Made by a program: the position numbers and the translations under genes
In this document: piece after piece, positions 5,409-63,389 of the stretch
Numbering within the stretch: the stretch's first letter is position 1
Layout of the letters: each line of letters starts with the position of its first letter
Notes under the pieces: model-generated
Told to the model about the DNA's origin: nothing
What the model saw: only the letters and a program-made list of their open reading frames with translations
The model's database searches: none
NCBI GenBank assembly: GCA_017962745.1
Contig: JAGCUR010000002.1
Coordinates: 1-64,000, forward strand
Length of the DNA: 64,000 nucleotides
Source: Bacilli bacterium
GTDB lineage: Bacteria; Bacillota_I; Bacilli_A; ML615J-28; CAG-698
Direction of reading: 5' to 3'

Positions 5409-6239
5409 ATGATAAAAATAATCGTATTATTAGTATCATTAGTGCTAGGGATTCTAACTAGTTTGCTATTTGATTTTGCTAATCCATATGTTTATATACC
5501 AGTAGCATTTGGTTTCTTTGTAGCATACATAATACTTACTGTATCACTATTTTTCATTAGTGCTGTAATTATTGATTTACCGATTGATACTAAGAAGAAA
5601 CCAGAAAAATATAATGGTAGGTACCAAAAGATCTTTTCTAGATACGTTAGATGTGCCTTATCGCTATTTGGTGTTAAATTAAAAGCAAAAGGAATCGAAT
5701 TAGTTCCTAAAGATACTAACTTTTTATTAGTTGGTAATCATATATCTAATCTTGATCCCCTAGTAACTAATGTTTATTTTAAGGATTATCCATTTATTTT
5801 TGCTTCAAAAGAATCATTATTTAAAGTACCATTCTTTGGTAAGATGATTCACCAAATTGGTTATTTGAAGTTAAATAGAGAAGATGTAAGGAAAGATTTA
5901 AAAGAATTAGAAAGAGGCCTTACTTGGTTAAAAGATGGTGATTGCTCTTTAGCAGTCTATCCCGAAGGTACTAGAAACAAAACTGGTGAGACAACTTTAC
6001 TTCCTTTCAAAGATACTTGCTTTAAATTTGCGAAGAATTTACAAAAACCAATTGTAGTTAGTGCAATTTATGGCACGAAAGAAGTTAATGATCATTTATT
6101 AACAAAAAGGCATGTTGTTCATTATGAAGTAATTCAAACTTTATATTATGAAGATTATAAAGATATGACTCCATCAGAAATATCAAGTGTTGTTTATGAT
6201 ATGATTGAACAAAGAGTTTTAGAATTACAAAGTAAATAA
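5409..6239 (+). CDS. 1-acyl-sn-glycerol-3-phosphate acyltransferase (PlsC type)
   Basis: This 276-residue protein has two N-terminal hydrophobic segments (about residues 2-20 and 28-55). The acyltransferase signature follows: the HX4D box NHISNLD, a second block around FASKESLFKVPFFG, and YPEGTRN as the glycerophosphate-binding EGTR motif. It would transfer an acyl chain to lysophosphatidic acid at the membrane, giving phosphatidic acid. It is translationally linked to the upstream lipid kinase (4-base gap). Both enzymes can make phosphatidic acid by different routes, one recycling diacylglycerol and one acylating LPA. Two further proteins with PlsC domains occur at 46386 and 62121. Confidence 0.9.
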   Translation: MIKIIVLLVSLVLGILTSLLFDFANPYVYIPVAFGFFVAYIILTVSLFFISAVIIDLPIDTKKKPEKYNGRYQKIFSRYVRCALSLFGVKLKAKGIELVPKDTNFLLVGNHISNLDPLVTNVYFKDYPFIFASKESLFKVPFFGKMIHQIGYLKLNREDVRKDLKELERGLTWLKDGDCSLAVYPEGTRNKTGETTLLPFKDTCFKFAKNLQKPIVVSAIYGTKEVNDHLLTKRHVVHYEVIQTLYYEDYKDMTPSEISSVVYDMIEQRVLELQSK

Positions 6240-44207: not shown

Positions 44208-45185
44208 ATGAATAATGTTAGACCAGAATCATTAAAACGTATCGTTAGTGAAGAACAAGCTAAAAAGTTTGTAGAAGAAAGTGTTAAAGAATTAAAGGAA
44301 CAAATTGGAAATAACAAAGTACTACTTGCTCTATCAGGTGGCGTTGATTCAAGCGTTACTGCTGCACTATTAATTAAAGCCATTGGCAAAAATTTAGTAT
44401 GTGTACATGTAAACCACGGTTTACTTAGAAAAGATGAAAGCAAGCAAGTAATTAAAACTTTCCAAGATGAATTGGGTGCTACACTAATTTATGTAGATGC
44501 CGTTGACCGTTTCTTAGATAAGTTAGCCGGAGTTGCTGATCCAGAAACTAAAAGAAAAATCATCGGTAAAGAATTTATCGATGTGTTTGCTGAAGTTGCT
44601 AGAAAGCAAGATGACATTAAATTCTTAGCGCAAGGTACAATTTATCCAGATATTTTAGAATCTCATGGCATTAAAGCGCACCACAATGTGGGGGGTCTAC
44701 CTGAAGATTTACATTTTGAACTTGTAGAACCAGTTAAATTCTTATACAAAGATGAAGTTAGACTAGTTGGCTTAGCTCTAGGCTTAAAGCCAGAAATGGT
44801 TTATAGACAACCATTCCCAGGCCCCGGCCTTGGTGTTAGATGCCCTGGCGCTATCACAAAAGACCGCTTAGAACTAGTTAGAGAATCTGATGCAATCCTA
44901 AGAGAAGAATTTGCTAAATGCGGTCTAGCTAGCAAAGTATGGCAATACTTCACAATCGTTCCTGATTATCGTTCTACTGGTATTAACAATAACCAAAGAA
45001 CTTATGAATACTTTGTAGTTATTAGAGCAGTCAACTCTGTTGATGCTACTAGCGCTACAGTTGAAGAAATACCATATGATACTTTATTTAAGATCCGTGA
45101 TCGTATCTTAAATGAAGTAAAAGGAATCAATAGAGTATTAGTAGATATTACACCAAAACCTACTGGTACTATTGAATGGGAATAA
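44208..45185 (+). CDS. guaA: GMP synthase, ATP-pyrophosphatase part only
   Basis: The 325-residue protein carries the PP-loop SGGVDSSV (residues 43-50), the ATP-pyrophosphatase domain and the C-terminal dimerisation domain (RQPFPGPGLGVRCPG, ending PKPTGTIEWE). The usual ~190-residue N-terminal glutamine amidotransferase domain is absent, and no reading frame for it is found next door. It aminates XMP to GMP using ATP. Without the amidotransferase it needs free ammonia or a separate GATase subunit, as in many archaea. GAGAGGAT precedes the ATG. It closes the riboswitch-controlled operon. Confidence 0.93.
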   Translation: MNNVRPESLKRIVSEEQAKKFVEESVKELKEQIGNNKVLLALSGGVDSSVTAALLIKAIGKNLVCVHVNHGLLRKDESKQVIKTFQDELGATLIYVDAVDRFLDKLAGVADPETKRKIIGKEFIDVFAEVARKQDDIKFLAQGTIYPDILESHGIKAHHNVGGLPEDLHFELVEPVKFLYKDEVRLVGLALGLKPEMVYRQPFPGPGLGVRCPGAITKDRLELVRESDAILREEFAKCGLASKVWQYFTIVPDYRSTGINNNQRTYEYFVVIRAVNSVDATSATVEEIPYDTLFKIRDRILNEVKGINRVLVDITPKPTGTIEWE

Positions 45186-46184: not shown

Positions 46185-46215
46185 CCATTCTACTAGTAGT
46201 AGAGTGGTTTTTTTT
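46185..46215 (+). terminator. Rho-independent terminator of the mgtC-type gene
   Basis: CCATTCTACT (46185-46194) pairs with AGTAGAGTGG (46198-46207), with one G-T pair, around AGT. Eight T follow. Confidence 0.9.
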
Positions 46216-46385
46216 AATAGTTTAGTTAGATGCTATTTAGTAGGTAGACTATAATTTTATTCTTTTTTAAAATGATTGTAGAATAATATACAAACTAGCT
46301 TGATTTGTAAGTATTCAAAAAAGAGCTATAAGAGTAAAATATTTGTATATTTGTTTACTATTAATACATGAAAAGAGGTAAAAAG

Positions 46386-48161
46386 ATGAAAAGAAAAAGA
46401 ATTCCAGTGTTCTTTGCAGTTGATGATAATTACGTTGAATTCTTGGAAGTAACTATTGCTTCAATCATCGATAATGCAAAAGATGAATCATTTGCTTATA
46501 CATTTTATGTTCTTCACAATGGATTAAGCAAGAAATCAAAGAAAAGATTATCAAAGTTATCTCATCACCGTTTTAGAATTGTTTATTATAATGTAAGTGG
46601 TAGTCTAGGCCAAATGGAAAATAGATTTAAACTTCGTGACTACTATACTCTAACTACATATTATAGATTGTTAATTCCTAATACATTCTTCTTAATTGAT
46701 AAAGCAATTTATCTAGATTGCGATATCGTTGTCTTAGATGATTTAGCTAATCTATATAAATATGATATTGGTGATAATTTAGTCGGAGCAATCCCTGATG
46801 CAAGTGTAGCCGTAGTTAAAGAATTTAATGATTATACTACTAACGCTTTACGCATTAGCAAAGAAGAATACTTTAATGCCGGTGTCCTTTTAATGAATTT
46901 AAAAGCGATGAGACAAAATCATTTGTTAAGTAGAGTCTATGAATTATCGAAAACGACTGCTTTTAGAGTAGCGCAAGACCAAGACTTATTAAATGTTTTA
47001 TGTAAGGGTAAAGTCACATACCTTCCTGATAGTTGGAATGTAATGCCAATTGGGGAAAGACGCGTCGATATTTCACTAATTCATTACAATTTAATTTATA
47101 AACCATGGAAACGTCGCGATATTATGTATCAAGAACATTTCTGGCATTATGTGAAAAAGCTTAATTTAGAAGAAAAGATTAAAGATCGACTTGATAGTAT
47201 TACCGAAGAATACTTGAAAAATGAAGAAGAAGGTATGAATAACTTAATTAAGTTATGCACTCATGAAGCGCTTCATCCTGAAAACTATGTAAACTGCGAA
47301 AAGGTAACTAAAGAAGAAGATACATATTATAGTCTTAACATTGAACGTAGTGAAGTTTATGAAAAGATTAAAGAGTTAGAAGAAGAGGGTAAGTTTGATG
47401 TGGACGTGGAAAACGATCCACCATATACGCCACTTCATGTAGGGGATGTTGATTATAAACAACGCAAACTACGTCATAAAATTGAAGCAAGACTTTATAC
47501 ATTTTATTCTTTTAGATATTTTAATCATCAAATTAAAACTGGTAACATTATAATTGATGAATATAAAGGTATTGAAAACTTAAAGAAGGTAAAAGGGGGA
47601 GCAATTGTGACTAGCAACCACTTTAATCCTTTTGATAGTATTCCAATTCATAAAGCAGTTAAGAAATATCATCATAAAGGCAGACTATTTAAGATTATTA
47701 AAGAAGGTAATTATACATTCCCAGGATTATACGGTAAATTTATGAGATATTGTAATACCTTACCTTTAGCTAATGACTTTGATGTTATGAGAGAAATGAT
47801 TAGTAGTGTAGAGTACTGGTTAGATAAAGGCCATATGATCTTAATTTATCCAGAACAATCAATGTGGTGGAATTATCGTAAACCAAAACCAACTAAACCT
47901 GGTGCTTTTAGATTTGCCGCTAAATTTGATTATCCAATCTTACCAACATTTATCACAATGCGTGAAACTGATAAATATAATAAAGATGGTGATAACATCT
48001 TAGCTTATACTTTACATATTCTAAAACCAATTTATCCAAGAAATGATTTAAACTTCAAAGAAAATATTGCTTATCTTCAAGAATGTCATGATAAAGCATG
48101 GAAAGAAGTATATGAAGCTACTTATAATACAAAGCTAGAATATACAACTAAGGTAAACTAA
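46386..48161 (+). CDS. GT8 glycosyltransferase fused to PlsC-type acyltransferase
   Basis: The 591-residue protein has two enzymes in one chain. Residues 1-260 are a GT8 retaining glycosyltransferase: PVFFAVDDNY, the metal-binding DxD as YLDCD (Asp111, Asp113), EYFNAGVLLMN, QDQDLLN and HYNLIYKPW. Residues 260-375 are a charged helical linker. Residues 376-591 are an acyltransferase: NHFNPFD (HX4D, His412 and Asp417) and YPEQSMWW in place of EGTR. No signal or membrane helix is seen. It may glycosylate a lipid and acylate the product. ATG 46386 is chosen because AGAGG lies 7 bases upstream; ATG 46368 precedes that site. A CrtO-like gene follows without a gap. Confidence 0.88.
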   Translation: MKRKRIPVFFAVDDNYVEFLEVTIASIIDNAKDESFAYTFYVLHNGLSKKSKKRLSKLSHHRFRIVYYNVSGSLGQMENRFKLRDYYTLTTYYRLLIPNTFFLIDKAIYLDCDIVVLDDLANLYKYDIGDNLVGAIPDASVAVVKEFNDYTTNALRISKEEYFNAGVLLMNLKAMRQNHLLSRVYELSKTTAFRVAQDQDLLNVLCKGKVTYLPDSWNVMPIGERRVDISLIHYNLIYKPWKRRDIMYQEHFWHYVKKLNLEEKIKDRLDSITEEYLKNEEEGMNNLIKLCTHEALHPENYVNCEKVTKEEDTYYSLNIERSEVYEKIKELEEEGKFDVDVENDPPYTPLHVGDVDYKQRKLRHKIEARLYTFYSFRYFNHQIKTGNIIIDEYKGIENLKKVKGGAIVTSNHFNPFDSIPIHKAVKKYHHKGRLFKIIKEGNYTFPGLYGKFMRYCNTLPLANDFDVMREMISSVEYWLDKGHMILIYPEQSMWWNYRKPKPTKPGAFRFAAKFDYPILPTFITMRETDKYNKDGDNILAYTLHILKPIYPRNDLNFKENIAYLQECHDKAWKEVYEATYNTKLEYTTKVN

Positions 48162-48743
48162 ATGGCATACCTAATTATCATATTAGTAATGATGGGTATC
48201 ATTAGCGGCCTAAACATTGCGTTTAATCCGCTATATGAATGGTATGTATATATCATTGCTACCATCATTGGTGTAATAGTAGTTATTGGGATTGATGGGG
48301 TTGTCGCTAGCCGAATTAGGCATATGCCCGAAAAATATTTTGATTATCATAAGAAAGTATTTAAAACCTCTAAAACTGAATATAAGTTTTATAAGCTAAT
48401 TGGGGTTAAAAAATGGAAAGAACATGTACCAGAACTAGGCATGTTTACTGGTTTTAGGAAAAATAAAATTGCCAATCCTAAAGATCCAGCTTATTTATCT
48501 AGATATATATTAGAAGCATGTTATGGAATTATTATTCATTTGTGGAGTGTACCATTTTCATTTTTAATAATGTTACTAGATATTAAGATGTATAGTGGTA
48601 ATTCTAATTTATGGTTAACAGTATTATTACCAGTAGCAATAATAAATGCTATTTTAATCGTACTGCCAGCTTTTATTTTAAAATATAACTTACCAAAACT
48701 TGTTAGGTTATACGAAATAAGTAATAAAAAAGGAGAACAGTAG
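48162..48743 (+). CDS. CrtO-like membrane acyltransferase (glycolipid acyltransferase family)
   Basis: The 193-residue protein has two N-terminal helices and two C-terminal helices. The central loop reads EYKFYKLIGVKKWKEHVPE, then NPKDPAYLSRYILEACYG and a His in IIHLWSVP. This pattern resembles CrtO, the glycosyl-4,4'-diaponeurosporenoate acyltransferase family of staphyloxanthin synthesis, which acylates a glycolipid. No carotenoid genes are present here. It starts at the base after the stop codon of the GT8-acyltransferase fusion, so the two are almost surely made together. The substrate is inferred to be the glycolipid made by that neighbour. Confidence 0.6.
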   Translation: MAYLIIILVMMGIISGLNIAFNPLYEWYVYIIATIIGVIVVIGIDGVVASRIRHMPEKYFDYHKKVFKTSKTEYKFYKLIGVKKWKEHVPELGMFTGFRKNKIANPKDPAYLSRYILEACYGIIIHLWSVPFSFLIMLLDIKMYSGNSNLWLTVLLPVAIINAILIVLPAFILKYNLPKLVRLYEISNKKGEQ

Positions 48744-48757
48744 TTCTCCTTTTTTTA
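48729..48757 (+). terminator. Rho-independent terminator
   Basis: AAAGGAGAAC (48729-48738) pairs with GTTCTCCTTT (48743-48752) around AGTA, followed by T. The stop codon of the CrtO-like gene lies in the loop. Confidence 0.92.
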
Positions 48758-53665: not shown

Positions 53666-55321
53666 ATGGTCTATAGAGAATATAAACATTTAGACGGCGC
53701 AATGTTCGAAGAATTTATTATTTCGGGCGCTGCCAAGTTAGAACAAAATGTCAAACAAATAAATGATTTAAATGTCTTTCCAATACCTGATGGCGATACA
53801 GGCGATAATATGTATCGTACAATCGCTGGTGGAATTGAAACGATGAAAAAAGAACCGGCTAATTCAGTAGCTAAAAAGTCGCATGCATTAGCAGAAGGTA
53901 TGCTATTTAATGCAAGAGGTAACTCTGGTGTTATCCTTTCACAAATCTTTGCTGGTATGGCAAATGGATTTGCAGGTGTTGAAGTAGCAAGTATTGAAGA
54001 TATCATTTATGCTTTCGGTGAAGGCGTTAAAAAAGCATATTCAGCTGTAACTCCACCAGTAGAAGGTACAATTTTAACGGTTGCTAGAGAAGCAACTGAA
54101 CAAATGGAAGAAATCAAAGAAGATTTAACAATTGGTGAGTTTGCGGAAGCATTTAGAAAATATATGTATCATTCACTAGAAAATACACCAGAACTTCTTC
54201 ATATCTTAAAAGAAGCAGGTGTTATCGATAGCGGTGGCGCAGGCTTATATTTAATCGCTGATGGAATCGTAGATGCAATTAATGGAGAAAACGTAATAGC
54301 TAGCGCAAACCATCAAGCAAATAGCCAAGCTGTTGATTTTTCAAAATTTACTGAAGATTCAGAACTTAAATTTGGATATTGTACAGAAATTTTACTAAGA
54401 CTTATGAATAAGAAAGTTGATGTTAAGAATTTTGATGAAAACATCATCATTGATTATTTAAAGACAATTGGTGATTCAATTGTAGCATTTAAGAATGATT
54501 CAATTGTTAAGGTCCATGTTCATACAATGACACCATCTAAAGTTTTAGAATATTGTCAACAATTCGGTGAATTCTTAACAATCAAAATTGAAAATATGAC
54601 TCTTCAACATAACGAATCTCATTTCGCAAAAGACGAGCTACCAACAGTTGAACGTGAAACTAAGAAATATGGTGTTATCGTAGTTGCCGATGGCGAAGGT
54701 TTTAAATCATTATTCAAAGAATTAGGCGTTGATATCGTTATTGATGGCGGTCAAGGTAAGAATCCATCAATCAATGATTTCGTAAAGGCATTTGATGAAG
54801 TAAATGCGCATAACATTTATGTATTCCCTAATAACTCAAATATTATTCTAGCTGCTAATCAAGCTAAAGAAATGTATGATAAATCAAATATTTATGTTGT
54901 GGAAACTAAAAATGTCGGTGAAGCATATGCCGCTTTATCAATGCTAGATTATAGTATTGAACCTGATGAATTATTTGATTTATTTATCGAAAATAGCTCT
55001 AGCGAAAATGTTGGTACAGCCCTAGTTTGCAAAGCAACTAGAGATGTAGAACTAGGTGGCGTTAAAGTTAAAGAAAACGACTATATCGTTATGGAAGGTA
55101 AGAAAATTGATTTAGCTAATCCTAATATCGTTGATGCAGTTGTGGAGTTTTATAAAGAACGCGATTACATCAGTTTATCTACAATCTTCTATGGCAAGAA
55201 TGTAACTGAAGAAGAAAAACAAATGATTGGTAGGGGCATAAGAAGCCAACTTCCTGATATTGAATTATATGAAGCAGATGGCGGACAAGATACATTTGAT
55301 CTAGTCATCATCATTGAATAG
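53666..55321 (+). CDS. fakA: Fatty acid kinase catalytic subunit FakA
   Basis: The 551-residue protein has an N-terminal Dak2-like kinase domain with the nucleotide/metal loop PDGDTGDNM (residues 41-49) and ARGNSGVILSQ, and a GGAGLYLI block near residue 190. A middle domain and a C-terminal DegV-like domain complete it, as in FakA. It phosphorylates fatty acids held by FakB, feeding PlsX/PlsY phospholipid synthesis. AGGAGT precedes the ATG. The next gene is a FakB-type binding protein, 9 bases away. Full length. Confidence 0.93.
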   Translation: MVYREYKHLDGAMFEEFIISGAAKLEQNVKQINDLNVFPIPDGDTGDNMYRTIAGGIETMKKEPANSVAKKSHALAEGMLFNARGNSGVILSQIFAGMANGFAGVEVASIEDIIYAFGEGVKKAYSAVTPPVEGTILTVAREATEQMEEIKEDLTIGEFAEAFRKYMYHSLENTPELLHILKEAGVIDSGGAGLYLIADGIVDAINGENVIASANHQANSQAVDFSKFTEDSELKFGYCTEILLRLMNKKVDVKNFDENIIIDYLKTIGDSIVAFKNDSIVKVHVHTMTPSKVLEYCQQFGEFLTIKIENMTLQHNESHFAKDELPTVERETKKYGVIVVADGEGFKSLFKELGVDIVIDGGQGKNPSINDFVKAFDEVNAHNIYVFPNNSNIILAANQAKEMYDKSNIYVVETKNVGEAYAALSMLDYSIEPDELFDLFIENSSSENVGTALVCKATRDVELGGVKVKENDYIVMEGKKIDLANPNIVDAVVEFYKERDYISLSTIFYGKNVTEEEKQMIGRGIRSQLPDIELYEADGGQDTFDLVIIIE

Positions 55322-55330
55322 GAGGATATA

Positions 55331-56227
55331 ATGAATAAAATAGCGATTATTACAGATTCATCTTGTAATTTAAATTCAAAACTAAAAAGTGAATTTGGTG
55401 TTGATTATATTGTACCTATGCACTTTATTTTAGATGGTAAAATGTATGATGCTAGCGGTGATTGGGAATTAATGAGTGCTAAGGAATATTACGATAATAT
55501 GCGTAATGGTAAAATCTTAAAGTCTTCACTAATTAAACAAGCAGAATATGAAGAAGCATTCAAGAAATTCTTAGATCAAGGATATGATATTTTATCAATA
55601 TCTTGTACATCAGCTTTATCAGCTTCGGTTAAAGAAAGTTATAAAGCAAAAGATGCCCTAAAAGATTTATATCCAAATCAAAAAATACAGTGTGTTGATA
55701 GTGCAAACTGCACATTCTCACTTGCTATGATCTTAAAAGAAGCAGGTAAAATGAGAGATGCTGGTAAACCAATGGAAGAAATCATTGATTGGATCGATGA
55801 AAACAAATTATATTTCAACGAAGTAGGAACAGTAGATAAACTTACATATTTACGTCTTGCTGGTCGTGTTAGTGCTTCAGCTGCTTTCTTTGGCGGAATG
55901 TTAGGCGTTAAACCAATCGTAGTATACGATATGGAAGGACATAATGTAGCAGTTCAAAAAGTTAAAGGTCGTAAAAAATCACTTGAAACTGTCGCTGATT
56001 ACATTAAGAAATATGCAATTACAGGAATTTACAATACAATTTATATTGCCCATGCAGATTGCTTAGAAGATGCTCAACTACTAGCCCAAATGATTCAAGA
56101 AAGATTTACGCAAAAACTAGAATTTGTCTTTGATTATATTGAATCAGGCGTTGGATCTTCAGTTGGTCCTGGCACATTAATCTTAGGCTTCTATGGTAAT
56201 AAAGCAATAAGAATGCTAAATGAATAA
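55331..56227 (+). CDS. fakB: Fatty-acid-binding DegV protein FakB
   Basis: The 298-residue DegV protein starts IAIITDSSCNLNS and has the fatty-acid-contacting segments ILKSSLIKQAEYEEAF and SISCTSALSASV. The RLAGRVSASAA block (about 178-188) and a C-terminal GVGSSVGPGTL follow. It holds a free fatty acid while FakA, encoded directly upstream, phosphorylates it. AGGAGG precedes the ATG. A second, solitary DegV gene lies at 16106 and may give another chain-length preference. Confidence 0.92.
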   Translation: MNKIAIITDSSCNLNSKLKSEFGVDYIVPMHFILDGKMYDASGDWELMSAKEYYDNMRNGKILKSSLIKQAEYEEAFKKFLDQGYDILSISCTSALSASVKESYKAKDALKDLYPNQKIQCVDSANCTFSLAMILKEAGKMRDAGKPMEEIIDWIDENKLYFNEVGTVDKLTYLRLAGRVSASAAFFGGMLGVKPIVVYDMEGHNVAVQKVKGRKKSLETVADYIKKYAITGIYNTIYIAHADCLEDAQLLAQMIQERFTQKLEFVFDYIESGVGSSVGPGTLILGFYGNKAIRMLNE

Positions 56228-58426: not shown

Positions 58427-60031
58427 ATGTTAACCCTTACTTATCTTAAAGATAATCAAGAGCTTAAAACTAATAATTCTAATCAAGATTTAGAATTAAC
58501 AATTAAAAAAGATGCAAACCGTACAGTGGTTAGCGTAAAAGCATTAGCCGAAATCAAATTAGTTGATGCTAAATTAGATACTGATATCAAAATTAAAGAT
58601 AATGATTTAATGTTTTTAAATGGTTATCAATCATGGACTGATACAGCAGAAGTAGATTTAAGTTTCAAAGAAAGAAATGTTACTAAACTTCCTAAGTTTT
58701 TAGTCAATGCATTTGGCTTTGACCGCTATGGCGACCCACTAATCTATAACTATGATAAAAATAAACTTCACGGATATGATTGTTTCTATATTAGAGGTGA
58801 AGCTGAATATTTTAGTTATAGCCTAAATGTAAATAAAGCTTATTTAGTTTATGAAATAAACAAAGCTGATAAGTCATTAACACTAACTAGTATGTGTTTA
58901 AATAAGAAACTGGCAAGTGGGGAAGAATTTAATTTATTTGATTATTTAGAATTTGCATCAATTGAAGAAGGCATTAATAGCCTTCACCAAACATATCCGC
59001 ATCGCGAGTGCGAAAAGGTATTTGGCTATACATCTTGGTATAATTATTACCAAAACATTAACGAAGAAATCATCTTACGCGACTTAGAAGGCTTAGATTC
59101 AAGATTCAATTTATTCCAAATTGATGATGGATATGAAACTTATGTTGGGGATTGGAAAGATATAGATCCTGCTAAATTTCCAAATGGCCTAGCTGATATC
59201 GTTAATAAGATTCACCAAAAAGGATATAAAGCAGGTATTTGGCTTGCACCATTTGTGGCAGAGACTAAATCAAAACTATTTAGTGAAAGAAAAGATTTAC
59301 TAAAGATGGTTGATGGTGCCCCTGTAAGCTGCGGTGGTAACTGGAGCGGATTCTACGCTTTAGATATGCAAAACCCAGATACCCTAGCTTATATTAAAGA
59401 ATGTCTAGAATATTATATCGATTTAGGATTTGATTTCTTTAAACTAGATTTCTTATATGCAGCTAGCCTTCCTTTATATGAAGGACTAACGAGAGCGGAA
59501 ATGGCTGAAAAATCATATGCTTTTATTAAAGAAGTTTTAAAAGATAAATTAGTATTAGGATGTGGAGCTATTCCATTTAATAGTGCTAATAAATTTGAAT
59601 ATTTAAGAATTGGACCAGATGTATCATTAATCTTTGATGATATTTGGTACATGAAGCATATGCATCGTGAACGTATCTCTACAAAAGTTACGCTTCAAAA
59701 TACCATTTATCGTAGCATTTTCAATAATCATTTATTCTTAAATGATCCTGATGTCTTTTTATTAAGAGATGATAACATTAAGTTATCAGCTAAACAAAAA
59801 GAAGCATTGCTTACAATTAATAGTTTATTTGGTAGCGTGCTAATGACATCTGATAATATTGGTAGTTATGATGAAGCTAAAAAGGATTTATTAGAAAAAG
59901 CATTTGAGATGTTTTATCAAAGCACTGATAAATCATATAAAAAAGATGGTAACTATATTTTAATTAGTTATAAGTTAGAGGAAAAAAAATATAACTTAAA
60001 GTATAATACTTTAAAAGGAGTTATGGAATAA
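58427..60031 (+). CDS. GH36-type alpha-galactosidase
   Basis: The 534-residue protein has an N-terminal beta-sandwich and a barrel with FGYTSWYNYY, FQIDDGYE, the nucleophile loop FFKLDF (Asp341) and RIGPDVS with the likely acid/base Asp398. It is shorter than full-length GH36 enzymes (about 700 residues) and lacks a signal peptide, so it acts on sugars brought in by the symporter encoded upstream. ATG 58427 is chosen, since AAGGAG lies just before it; ATG 58409 in frame overlaps the symporter gene and that site. Its last base is shared with the next start codon. Confidence 0.88.
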   Translation: MLTLTYLKDNQELKTNNSNQDLELTIKKDANRTVVSVKALAEIKLVDAKLDTDIKIKDNDLMFLNGYQSWTDTAEVDLSFKERNVTKLPKFLVNAFGFDRYGDPLIYNYDKNKLHGYDCFYIRGEAEYFSYSLNVNKAYLVYEINKADKSLTLTSMCLNKKLASGEEFNLFDYLEFASIEEGINSLHQTYPHRECEKVFGYTSWYNYYQNINEEIILRDLEGLDSRFNLFQIDDGYETYVGDWKDIDPAKFPNGLADIVNKIHQKGYKAGIWLAPFVAETKSKLFSERKDLLKMVDGAPVSCGGNWSGFYALDMQNPDTLAYIKECLEYYIDLGFDFFKLDFLYAASLPLYEGLTRAEMAEKSYAFIKEVLKDKLVLGCGAIPFNSANKFEYLRIGPDVSLIFDDIWYMKHMHRERISTKVTLQNTIYRSIFNNHLFLNDPDVFLLRDDNIKLSAKQKEALLTINSLFGSVLMTSDNIGSYDEAKKDLLEKAFEMFYQSTDKSYKKDGNYILISYKLEEKKYNLKYNTLKGVME

Positions 60032-61464
60032 TGGATAAAAGTAGTGTTATTTTTGGCAACGAAATGAGCGCAAAAGTTATTAAGGGCGCTAACAAAAGTA
60101 AACAAAAATATATTAAAAAATATGGTGATGATTTAAACGCCGATTACAAAATCAGCTTTAAAGATATCGATACTCTAGATTTCATTGATGCATCTAATAT
60201 TGTATTTGGGGAAGAGAACCAATCTTTTAGCGATAATGCGCTAATCGTTGGTAATATTCGTATGGGCTTTGGCCATTATAGAATCTCAATTGCGATGGCA
60301 AGTTGTGCTAAAGCATTAGGTTATAAACCTTACTGGCTTGATTTAGCATCATTTGATGCAACAGGATCAAAGATGATTCGTGAACAAAATGATATGTATT
60401 CTCTAGCATCACGTATTAGTCAAAAATCAAAACTATTTAATAAGATCGTTTGGGAACCACTTAATTCAGAAGGATTTAAGAAGATTTCATATAATGCGAA
60501 AGACCAAAAGAATTCCGAATTATTAGTACCGATCTTTAGAAATATCCCTAAAGATATTCCATACATTGCAACGCACGTATGGCCATCTCAAGGTGCCATT
60601 CATGCAGGTATGACGCATGTAGTGAATGCCATTCCTGATAACTGGCCAATGGGCTTACATTTATCAGAAGGAGCAATTCACACTGTGCAAACACCATTTG
60701 CATATTTAGGTTATAAAATGTTAAATGGTTTTGATAAGAAACCATTAAAAGGTATTCCCGAAGAAGAACTAAAAATGGTTGGTTGTTTTGTAGATCACGA
60801 ATTATTAGTTGATTTAGAAAACGATAATGCTAGAAGAGTAGAAAGATTACAAAATGGTAAACCAGTTCGTATTTTAATGACAGTCGGTGGAGCTGGTGCT
60901 GGCTTTGATATGTATCTTGCTATGATTAAACATTTATTACCTTATGTTAATGAAGGTAAAGTTGCATTATTCATTAACTTTGGTGATCATAAGACAGTTT
61001 ACGAAAAATTACAAGAAAAGCTAGGCGACTTTAAAACTAATAACTTCTTTAATGAATATGGCAAATTAAAAGAATCTGCTAAGGACATTAAGGAAAAAGA
61101 TGTTACTGGTGTATATGCAATATACAACGAAAACATTTTTGAAGCCGTTTATTCTACAAACTTACTAATGCCACTTTCTGATTTATTAATCACTAAGCCA
61201 AGTGAACTTGCTTACTACCCTGTTCCTAAACTATTCATGAAGCACATCGGTGGTCATGAAGTATATGGAGCAATCAATGGTCGTGAAAAAGGCGACTCTA
61301 CATTTGAATGTCCTACAAAGGAGTCAATCAACCAAATGTTAGATAGATTATTAAGCGATAAAGAAATACTAATTCATATGTGCGGTAAGATTAATGAATT
61401 AAAGAAACAAGGATTTTATGATGGCGCATATGAATGTGTAAAACTAGCCGTTAAAGGCAAATAA
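60031..61464 (+). CDS. GT-B-fold glycosyltransferase-like protein
   Basis: The 477-residue protein has a glycosyltransferase-28/MurG-like first half with GNIRMGFGHYRIS (residues 74-86), which resembles the GFGH loop of lipid glycosyltransferases. The second half has MTVGGAGAGFDMYL and LMPLSDLLITKPSELAYYPV, like the nucleotide-sugar-binding part of GT-B enzymes. A long linker with DIPYIATHVWPSQG joins them. I do not recognise a named family. The ATG overlaps the alpha-galactosidase stop by one base. It may be a glycosyltransferase or a phosphorylase-like enzyme acting on the imported sugar; this is inference. Confidence 0.7.
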   Translation: MDKSSVIFGNEMSAKVIKGANKSKQKYIKKYGDDLNADYKISFKDIDTLDFIDASNIVFGEENQSFSDNALIVGNIRMGFGHYRISIAMASCAKALGYKPYWLDLASFDATGSKMIREQNDMYSLASRISQKSKLFNKIVWEPLNSEGFKKISYNAKDQKNSELLVPIFRNIPKDIPYIATHVWPSQGAIHAGMTHVVNAIPDNWPMGLHLSEGAIHTVQTPFAYLGYKMLNGFDKKPLKGIPEEELKMVGCFVDHELLVDLENDNARRVERLQNGKPVRILMTVGGAGAGFDMYLAMIKHLLPYVNEGKVALFINFGDHKTVYEKLQEKLGDFKTNNFFNEYGKLKESAKDIKEKDVTGVYAIYNENIFEAVYSTNLLMPLSDLLITKPSELAYYPVPKLFMKHIGGHEVYGAINGREKGDSTFECPTKESINQMLDRLLSDKEILIHMCGKINELKKQGFYDGAYECVKLAVKGK

Positions 61465-62120: not shown

Positions 62121-63389
62121 ATGAAAAAAGATTTTAAGCGATTTGATATGTACATTCCACCTAAAAAGGTTAAGTGGTTTTTAAAACCGCTTATTCCTCT
62201 AATTGTAAATAGCGGAATTAAAAAACATAAACCTGTTATCACTTATGAAAATACAAAAGATTTAAAAGCACCATTTTTATTACTATGTAATCACAATGCT
62301 TTCTTTGATTTTTCGGTAGCTGAGCATGTACTTGGTAAAAATGAAGCTAACTATGTTGTGGCAATTGATGGGTTTTTAAATAGAGAATGGTTGCTTAGAG
62401 ATGTTGGCTGTATTTGTAAAAGAAAGTTTACAAATGATTTAGTGCTAGTTAAGCAATTAAAAAGAGTAATTAATATGGGTAACGTTGCTGTTTTATATCC
62501 CGAAGCTAGATATTCTTTATGCGGAACAACAGCAGTACTACCTGCATCTTTAGGAAAACTAGTAAAATTCTTAAAAGTGCCAGTTGCTAGCTTAATTTGT
62601 CATGGTCATCATGTTAATTCACCATTCTGGGATACATCACACGAACGTGGCGTCGTGGGGACTGAGGCTACTTATAAATTACTATTTACAGCAGATGAAG
62701 TTAATAGTTTAAGCATTGAAGAGATTAACAGCCGAATCGTCAATGAATTCCAATATGATGATTTCAAGTGGCAAAAAGATAAAGGCGTTATTATAAATGA
62801 TCCTAACCGTGCTAAAGGCTTGCACCGCGTTTTATATAAATGTCCGGTTTGCGGAGAAGAACATAGCATGGATTCGCATAATGCAGTTTTAGAATGCACT
62901 GCCTGCGATGCTAAATGGGAAATGACCGAACTAGGTGAGCTAAAACGCATAAATGGTGAAGACCAATTCACTCATATTCCTGATTGGTATGAATGGGAAA
63001 GAAAATGTGTAGCCGAAGAAATCGAAAAAGGAACATATTCAAGTGGTGAATTAGAAGTCAGCGTTGATACGCTACCTAAAGATAAATTCATTCATCTAGG
63101 CAAAGGAACGCTAATCCACGATATGGAAGGCTTTAGAGTCAAAGGAATAGATGTAGAGGGTGATGAATTTAATATGGAAATCGATGCAAGAACGCAGTAT
63201 TCAGTTCATATTGAATACCAATACCTATTTAAACATGGCGATTGTATTGACTTAAATACAATTAATGATACTTGGTATATTTATCCAACTGGTAAATTTA
63301 ATGTTACTAAGATGGCTCTTGCTACTGAAGAACTATATTTAAAATACCAAAGAGATAAAGGTGTTAACTTACCGAAAGGATTAGCTTAA
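62121..63389 (+). CDS. PlsC-type acyltransferase with C-terminal zinc ribbon
   Basis: The 422-residue protein has an acyltransferase domain in residues 1-235: NHNAFFD (HX4D) and YPEARYS in place of EGTR. A zinc ribbon CPVC/CTAC follows near 248-270, and then a C-terminal beta-rich region of about 150 residues (KFIHLGKGTLIHDMEGFRV). The combination differs from plain PlsC, and the C-terminal part is not recognised. No membrane helix is clear. GGAGA precedes the ATG. MsrA starts one base after its stop, so the two are coupled. Confidence 0.83.
   Translation: MKKDFKRFDMYIPPKKVKWFLKPLIPLIVNSGIKKHKPVITYENTKDLKAPFLLLCNHNAFFDFSVAEHVLGKNEANYVVAIDGFLNREWLLRDVGCICKRKFTNDLVLVKQLKRVINMGNVAVLYPEARYSLCGTTAVLPASLGKLVKFLKVPVASLICHGHHVNSPFWDTSHERGVVGTEATYKLLFTADEVNSLSIEEINSRIVNEFQYDDFKWQKDKGVIINDPNRAKGLHRVLYKCPVCGEEHSMDSHNAVLECTACDAKWEMTELGELKRINGEDQFTHIPDWYEWERKCVAEEIEKGTYSSGELEVSVDTLPKDKFIHLGKGTLIHDMEGFRVKGIDVEGDEFNMEIDARTQYSVHIEYQYLFKHGDCIDLNTINDTWYIYPTGKFNVTKMALATEELYLKYQRDKGVNLPKGLA

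Follow-up and report, generated by a model that had tools for sequence, protein, structure and literature searches.

A GT8–PlsC-like fusion gene and its partner genes as candidates for acylated glycolipid synthesis in gut and rumen Firmicutes

Results

A fusion gene and a CrtO-family gene form a two-gene unit

We analyzed a window of 64,000 nucleotides, which comprises positions 1 to 64,000 of contig JAGCUR010000002.1 from a member of the Bacilli. The window encodes a protein in which a GT8 glycosyltransferase domain is followed by a PlsC-like (LPLAT) acyltransferase (AT) domain, and the locus contains the following features:

46185..46207, + strand: terminator-like hairpin upstream of the two-gene unit (pattern scan, consensus match only)
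46386..48161, + strand: GT8–PlsC (LPLAT) fusion gene, 591 aa; single frame with Pfam GT8 and Acyltransferase matches
46407..47114, + strand: GT8 domain, residues 14–249 (PF01501, E 3e-46; fold matches WbbM and LgtC)
46716..46724, + strand: DxD motif, D117-C-D119; both D invariant in 48 fusions
47331..47561, + strand: conserved N-terminal part of the acyltransferase, residues 322–398; also starts stand-alone AT proteins
47562..47954, + strand: PlsC-like acyltransferase core, residues 399–529 (PF01553, E 2.6e-13; AlphaFold2 model of residues 316–597 matches 5KYM and PatA)
47619..47636, + strand: HX4D motif, H418-F-N-P-F-D423; H in 48/48 and D in 47/48 fusions
47853..47891, + strand: clade-specific motif III EQSMWWNYRKPKP, residues 496–508, in place of EGTR (48 aligned fusions)
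48162..48743, + strand: gene of a CrtO-family acyltransferase (193 aa) that begins immediately behind the fusion's stop codon (PF18927, E 6.1e-19)
48726..48755, listed on the − strand: near-symmetrical terminator-like hairpin where the CrtO gene ends (pattern scan, consensus match only)

The fusion and CrtO genes are bounded by the terminator-like hairpins, which are pattern matches only. The frame of the fusion (46368..48161, + strand) is unbroken and contains 597 codons if translation starts at 46368, or 591 from the in-frame ATG at 46386. A Shine-Dalgarno-like sequence, AAAGAGGT (46372–46379), sits 6 nt ahead of this ATG, which makes 46386 the likelier, and probably the true, start. Residues are counted here from 46368, and those of an earlier sequence-only reading of this DNA equal our numbers minus 6.

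That reading had placed a GT8 domain and a PlsC-type domain in one frame, as is borne out by two Pfam matches above their curated cut-offs and by intact catalytic motifs. It had also named a frameshift or assembly error joining two genes as the explanation that would undo the observation. Split versions of the gene are present in other genomes, as such an artefact would have it, but the frame is uninterrupted, GC3 is alike across both halves, and a full-length copy occurs at 85% identity in a congener and at 69% identity in a genome of the same family. Furthermore, we gathered 78 distinct fused relatives from independent assemblies, which include named isolates. Because independent genomes carry the same full-length architecture, we reject an erroneous join, whose probability we consider negligible.

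The GT8 domain retains the signatures of its family

The N-terminal domain scored 158.5 bits against the PF01501 (Glyco_transf_8) profile, which has a cut-off of 24.3 bits. The DxD motif that had been located at residues 111–113 corresponds to D117/D119, and its invariance across the 48 aligned fusions upholds the assignment. In the same alignment, H239, K245, and P246 are invariant and W247 is present in 47 of 48 sequences, which together form the C-terminal His-(X5)-KPW signature; N170–G172 and Q203–D204 are also kept. A sequence search of the PDB with the fusion returned LgtC (E 1.3e-21) and WbbM, and a Foldseek search with the first domain of the predicted structure returned WbbM and LgtC. 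By analogy with LgtC, the domain would be a retaining, metal-dependent transferase that takes a hexose from a UDP-sugar. LgtC and WbbM share with the fusion the GT8 fold, the DxD motif, and the H...KPW signature, but they act on LPS-type glycans and have no acyltransferase domain.

The acyltransferase domain belongs to a branch with an altered motif III

The C-terminal domain scored 50.3 bits against PF01553 (cut-off 23), and this profile match, the HX4D motif, and the fold place it in the LPLAT/PlsC superfamily. The HX4D motif reported previously at residues 412–417 is that of H418 to D423, with H in 48 and D in 47 of the 48 fusions; the neighboring N417 is also kept. The stretch described earlier as a charged linker proved to be mostly the conserved N-terminus of the AT itself (about residues 322–365, consensus R..I..KI..LE.EG.FD.DVE.DPP...VDY), and the joint of low confidence in the AlphaFold2 model lies at residues 316–323.

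Motif III departs from EGTR. Its consensus in the 48 fusions is E496-Q497-S498-[ML]-W-W-N-Y-[RK]-K-P-K-P, in which E, Q, S, W, W, N, Y, K, P, K, and P are invariant, and residues 496–499 read EQSM in 47 sequences and EQSL in one. The wider AT clade, including its stand-alone members, has PEQ[SAE][ML]W at this position. Because the motif is constant across the fusions and shared by stand-alone ATs, we regard EQSM as the signature of a branch rather than a local loss; the replacement of EGTR noted from the single sequence therefore holds, as a feature of a clade and not as a change in one protein. The fusion scored 26.8 bits on TIGR00530 (1-acyl-glycerol-3-phosphate acyltransferase), far under the cut-off of 102.95, and the name of that enzyme is therefore unfitting for it.

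When the AT part was searched against PDB sequences, either by itself or as a profile, nothing meaningful was returned, and its matches came from the fold search alone. An AlphaFold2 model of residues 316–597 (pTM 0.86) matched Thermotoga maritima PlsC (5KYM, E 3.9e-7) and mycobacterial PatA (E 8.7e-7) in Foldseek. PlsC has PF01553, HX4D, and the overall fold in common with the AT, but carries EGTR where the fusion has EQSMWWNYRKPKP, and the AT differs from it in being joined to or paired with a glycosyltransferase. PatA is a phosphatidylinositol mannoside acyltransferase that acylates the sugar of a membrane glycolipid; its fold resembles that of the AT, whereas no sequence relationship was detected between the two, and PatA is encoded by a separate gene and acts on a different glycolipid.

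The full-length AlphaFold2 model, built with 48 aligned relatives, has a mean pLDDT of 87.8 and two well-folded domains. With a pTM of 0.58, the relative placement of the domains is not fixed, and the model contains no confident GT8/AT interface that would show hand-over of a substrate. The two coupled steps suggested in the sequence-only reading are plausible as a hypothesis.

Fused and split forms are widespread

One genome collection contained 466 relatives, of which the best 80 are mostly full length. Full-length relatives of ~600 aa occur in dozens of independent rumen and gut genomes of Bacilli, Lachnospiraceae, and other Clostridia, and the named carriers include Roseburia faecis M72 and Agathobacter ruminis JK623. 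The gene is patchy: of the 395 genomes sampled within the class, 32 gave a match at E≤1e-30. The sequence-only reading knew of no described enzyme with this pairing. A search of open-access PMC text likewise found neither a characterized enzyme of this kind nor a paper on the GT8–PlsC pairing or on a gene responsible for acylating the glycolipid. Each domain family is well known, and the protein is far from unique: its architecture is common in genomes and represents a widespread gene fusion.

About twenty genomes carry the GT8 (~315 aa) and the AT (~285 aa) as separate genes next to each other. Their order is nearly always that of the fusion, and in one locus (L147) other genes of the set lie in between. 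The deepest branches of a quick tree of the AT part include split forms, and the tree implies 8–9 changes between fused and split states, at least four of which are forced by supported branches, which suggests that fusion or fission probably happened repeatedly. A Lachnospiraceae metagenome-assembled genome encodes an 875-aa triple fusion, GT8–GT8–PlsC, with a second GT8 in front (L101:5707-8334).

Genomes of the same family as the host also encode GT4–PlsC fusions (L012, 608 aa; L014, 621 aa; L008, 421 aa) with PEGEL or PEGNL as motif III. Like the fusion studied here, L012 and L014 place a glycosyltransferase N-terminal to a PF01553 domain with an altered motif III (PEGEL), but their GT4 fold and different PlsC branch mark them as an independent fusion, for which we found no description. 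Glycosyltransferases thus seem to have been joined to PlsC-like domains on more than one occasion.

The core occurs with alternative partner sets

The CrtO neighbor scored 69 bits against PF18927 (cut-off 27.3), which places it in the CrtO family. Such a gene directly follows the fusion in about 30 loci, the spacing between the two ranging from −4 to +3 bp, and most of these loci have otherwise unrelated flanks; among Bacilli, a CrtO-like gene is the usual downstream neighbor. A different partner set, found mainly in Clostridia but also in some Bacilli, consists of a second GT8 (GT8b) and a second PF01553 protein (ATb), which carries an odd motif III of its own, PEAHIWPYYTKIRPF; a PF03706 (MprF-type) membrane protein joins this set in 14 loci. 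A second, separate acyltransferase gene is present in nearly every locus.

We compared 107 distinct AT-bearing loci. CrtO is present in 39 of them and GT8b and/or ATb in 61, seven have neither, and none has both when the core genes of split loci (GT8 and AT) are disregarded; a count that included these core genes gave five loci with both. At least one of the seven loci with neither (L101) reflects a gene-caller effect. The mutual exclusion of the two sets is striking, with few independent switches behind it (four independent pairs, median p 0.25).

In six loci, the GT8 is absent and an unrelated GT2 of ~430 aa adjoins the AT, as confirmed by Pfam in two loci and by homology in the rest; the partner is ATb in five of these and CrtO in one. 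Because a GT2 stands in for the GT8 beside the same AT, these loci provide the strongest support for the view that a glycosylated product is what the AT works with. In the loci examined, the surroundings of the core contain no conserved genes for a polysaccharide polymerase, a flippase, or sugar nucleotides. PADLOC matched neither the fusion nor the CrtO gene, and on that basis we rejected a defence system.

The two-gene unit is the clearest glycolipid candidate in the host genome

We next consider the genome inventory of the host (1.54 Mb, 97% complete), where absence refers to family searches of that genome. Its single GT8 and single CrtO both lie in the two-gene unit. The searches found no squalene/phytoene synthase family member (SQS_PSY, CrtM), no MGDG-synthase family member (MGDG_synth, GT28), no LtaS-type sulfatase domain (PF00884), and no PF03706 protein. 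The absence of PF00884 makes a glycolipid anchor for LTA less likely as the product.

PF00534 occurs at four loci: one encodes a glycogen synthase, one lies beside a UDP-galactopyranose mutase gene, and two belong to a polysaccharide-like cluster that also holds a bacterial sugar transferase and a borderline O-antigen-ligase-like protein. Two PF00534 proteins matched NF049988 at 47–50 bits against a cut-off of 400, and given this score and the differing contexts, we rejected another glycosyltransferase as the monoglucosyl-diacylglycerol synthase. Given this inventory, the host has no clearer candidate for a membrane glycolipid pathway than the fusion–CrtO unit.

Eleven PF01553 regions are many for a genome of this size, and several have a non-EGTR motif III; three of the eleven sites are 5409–6239, 46386–48161, and 62121–63389 of the window. 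Canonical EGTR enzymes are encoded at 5409..6239 of the window and on contig C8, and phosphatidic acid synthesis therefore need not depend on the fusion.

Other genes of the window were also noted. The 422-aa protein encoded at 62121–63389 has an odd acyltransferase architecture, with a PlsC-like domain at its N-terminus and two CxxC pairs (CPVC...CTAC), zinc-ribbon-like, at its C-terminus. A 325-aa GMP synthase (44208–45185) covers GuaA model positions 193–512 (ATPase/C-terminal part) only, and the glutamine amidotransferase part is absent from its frame. FakA-like (DAK2) and DegV genes adjoin at 53666–56227 and are likely a fatty acid kinase pair for the use of exogenous fatty acids. At 60031–61464, the gene for a DUF6937–DUF6938 protein neighbors those for a melibiase/GH31-like protein and an MFS_2 sugar transporter.

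Discussion

We propose that the fusion attaches a sugar to a membrane lipid and then a fatty acid to the resulting glycolipid by an ester bond, and that CrtO adds a further acyl group, and we give this reading a probability of about 0.5. That the pathway is one of acylated glycolipid synthesis is well supported, and for the acceptor, the sugar, the order of steps, the acylated position, and the localization we infer the following scheme. The enzyme would be a two-domain, probably cytosolic protein that associates with the membrane. Its GT8 domain would use a UDP-sugar to place a hexose on a membrane lipid, for which diacylglycerol is the most likely candidate, and its PlsC-like domain would transfer a fatty acid from acyl-ACP or acyl-CoA to the resulting glycolipid, most likely to a sugar hydroxyl; the fusion may ease hand-over between these steps. 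The CrtO-like partner, from the same transcription unit, would place a further acyl group on the sugar. The GT8 and AT core of Clostridia and some Bacilli would instead work with GT8b for extension and with ATb for acylation, and the MprF-type membrane protein, where present, may flip the product.

The succession of GT8, AT, and CrtO is proposed by analogy with Staphylococcus aureus, in which CrtQ attaches a glucose to a carotenoid acid and CrtO then esterifies this glucose at C6'' (PMC5587911). As in that step of staphyloxanthin synthesis, a glycosyltransferase is followed by a CrtO-family acyltransferase, but the host here lacks carotenoid genes, a GT8 takes the place of the GT2 (which is present in L164), and there is an extra PlsC-like acyltransferase. 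The sequence-only reading had also arrived at an acylated glycolipid, and the context fits, with a CrtO-type sugar acyltransferase next door. The conserved active-site motifs of both domains, the LgtC- and WbbM-like fold of the GT8 domain, the PlsC- and PatA-like fold of the AT, the adjacency of CrtO or of the GT8b, ATb, and PF03706 partners, the replacement of GT8 by GT2, the family absences in the host, and the spare EGTR PlsC-type enzymes count in favor of glycolipid acylation. Against our reading count the transfer of a role for CrtO from a carotenoid pathway that the host lacks, the unusual nature of a lipid composed of diacylglycerol and two further acyl chains, the full-length model with its lack of a confident domain interface, and the best fold match of the AT, PlsC, which acylates a glycerol hydroxyl of lyso-PA.

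That same fold match would suit an AT that acts before or beside GT8 and acylates a glycerol hydroxyl, for example of a monoacylglycerolipid or a glycosylglycerol, to give an ordinary hexosyl-diacylglycerol whose sugar is acylated only by CrtO (or ATb). The separate acyltransferase gene in nearly every locus could indeed acylate the sugar. However, the clade-wide constancy of EQSM in the place of EGTR, the low score on the lyso-PA acyltransferase model, and the other EGTR-bearing PF01553 enzymes of the genome argue against it, and we consider this scheme, the main rival of ours, rather unlikely. More improbable, in our estimate, is another lipid-linked or soluble glycan, such as a polyprenyl-linked surface glycan or an acylated oligosaccharide, that AT and CrtO would acylate. 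The GT8 relatives with structures act on LPS-type glycans, and PF03706 proteins occur in varied export contexts, as this product would have it, but the core lacks conserved polysaccharide polymerase, flippase, and sugar-nucleotide genes nearby, and its flanks are otherwise unrelated. A carotenoid, staphyloxanthin-like glycolipid pathway could explain the CrtO family of the neighbor and the one locus in which a GT2 lies beside AT and CrtO, as CrtQ does with CrtO; since the 97% complete genome has no CrtM (SQS_PSY family), we reject this pathway as very improbable.

Acylated glycosyl-diacylglycerols occur in Acholeplasma, lactobacilli, and streptococci, but to our knowledge most of the acyltransferases responsible have not been assigned. 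Lipids of the MGDG/DGDG type are among those that depend on the gut microbiota, according to a report whose excerpted text names no gene (PMC7721639). What counts here is a conserved module with a testable enzyme assignment, not the uniqueness of the protein. With a confidence just short of even, we suggest that gut and rumen Firmicutes have an undescribed modular pathway for acylated membrane glycolipids, in which a GT8–LPLAT core of the EQSM class, fused or encoded by two genes, is combined with partner sets. If this is true, the core would be completed by a non-carotenoid CrtO, or by GT8b and a second LPLAT, sometimes with an MprF-like flippase, and the EQSM branch of LPLATs would represent a new specificity class, with glycosyl lipids instead of glycerol phosphates as acyl acceptors. 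The finding suggests a role for CrtO-family proteins in organisms without carotenoids. It also provides a candidate enzyme and operon for acylated glycolipids in abundant gut bacteria (Roseburia, Agathobacter, and rumen Bacilli), where bacterial glycolipids matter for membrane physiology and host immunity.
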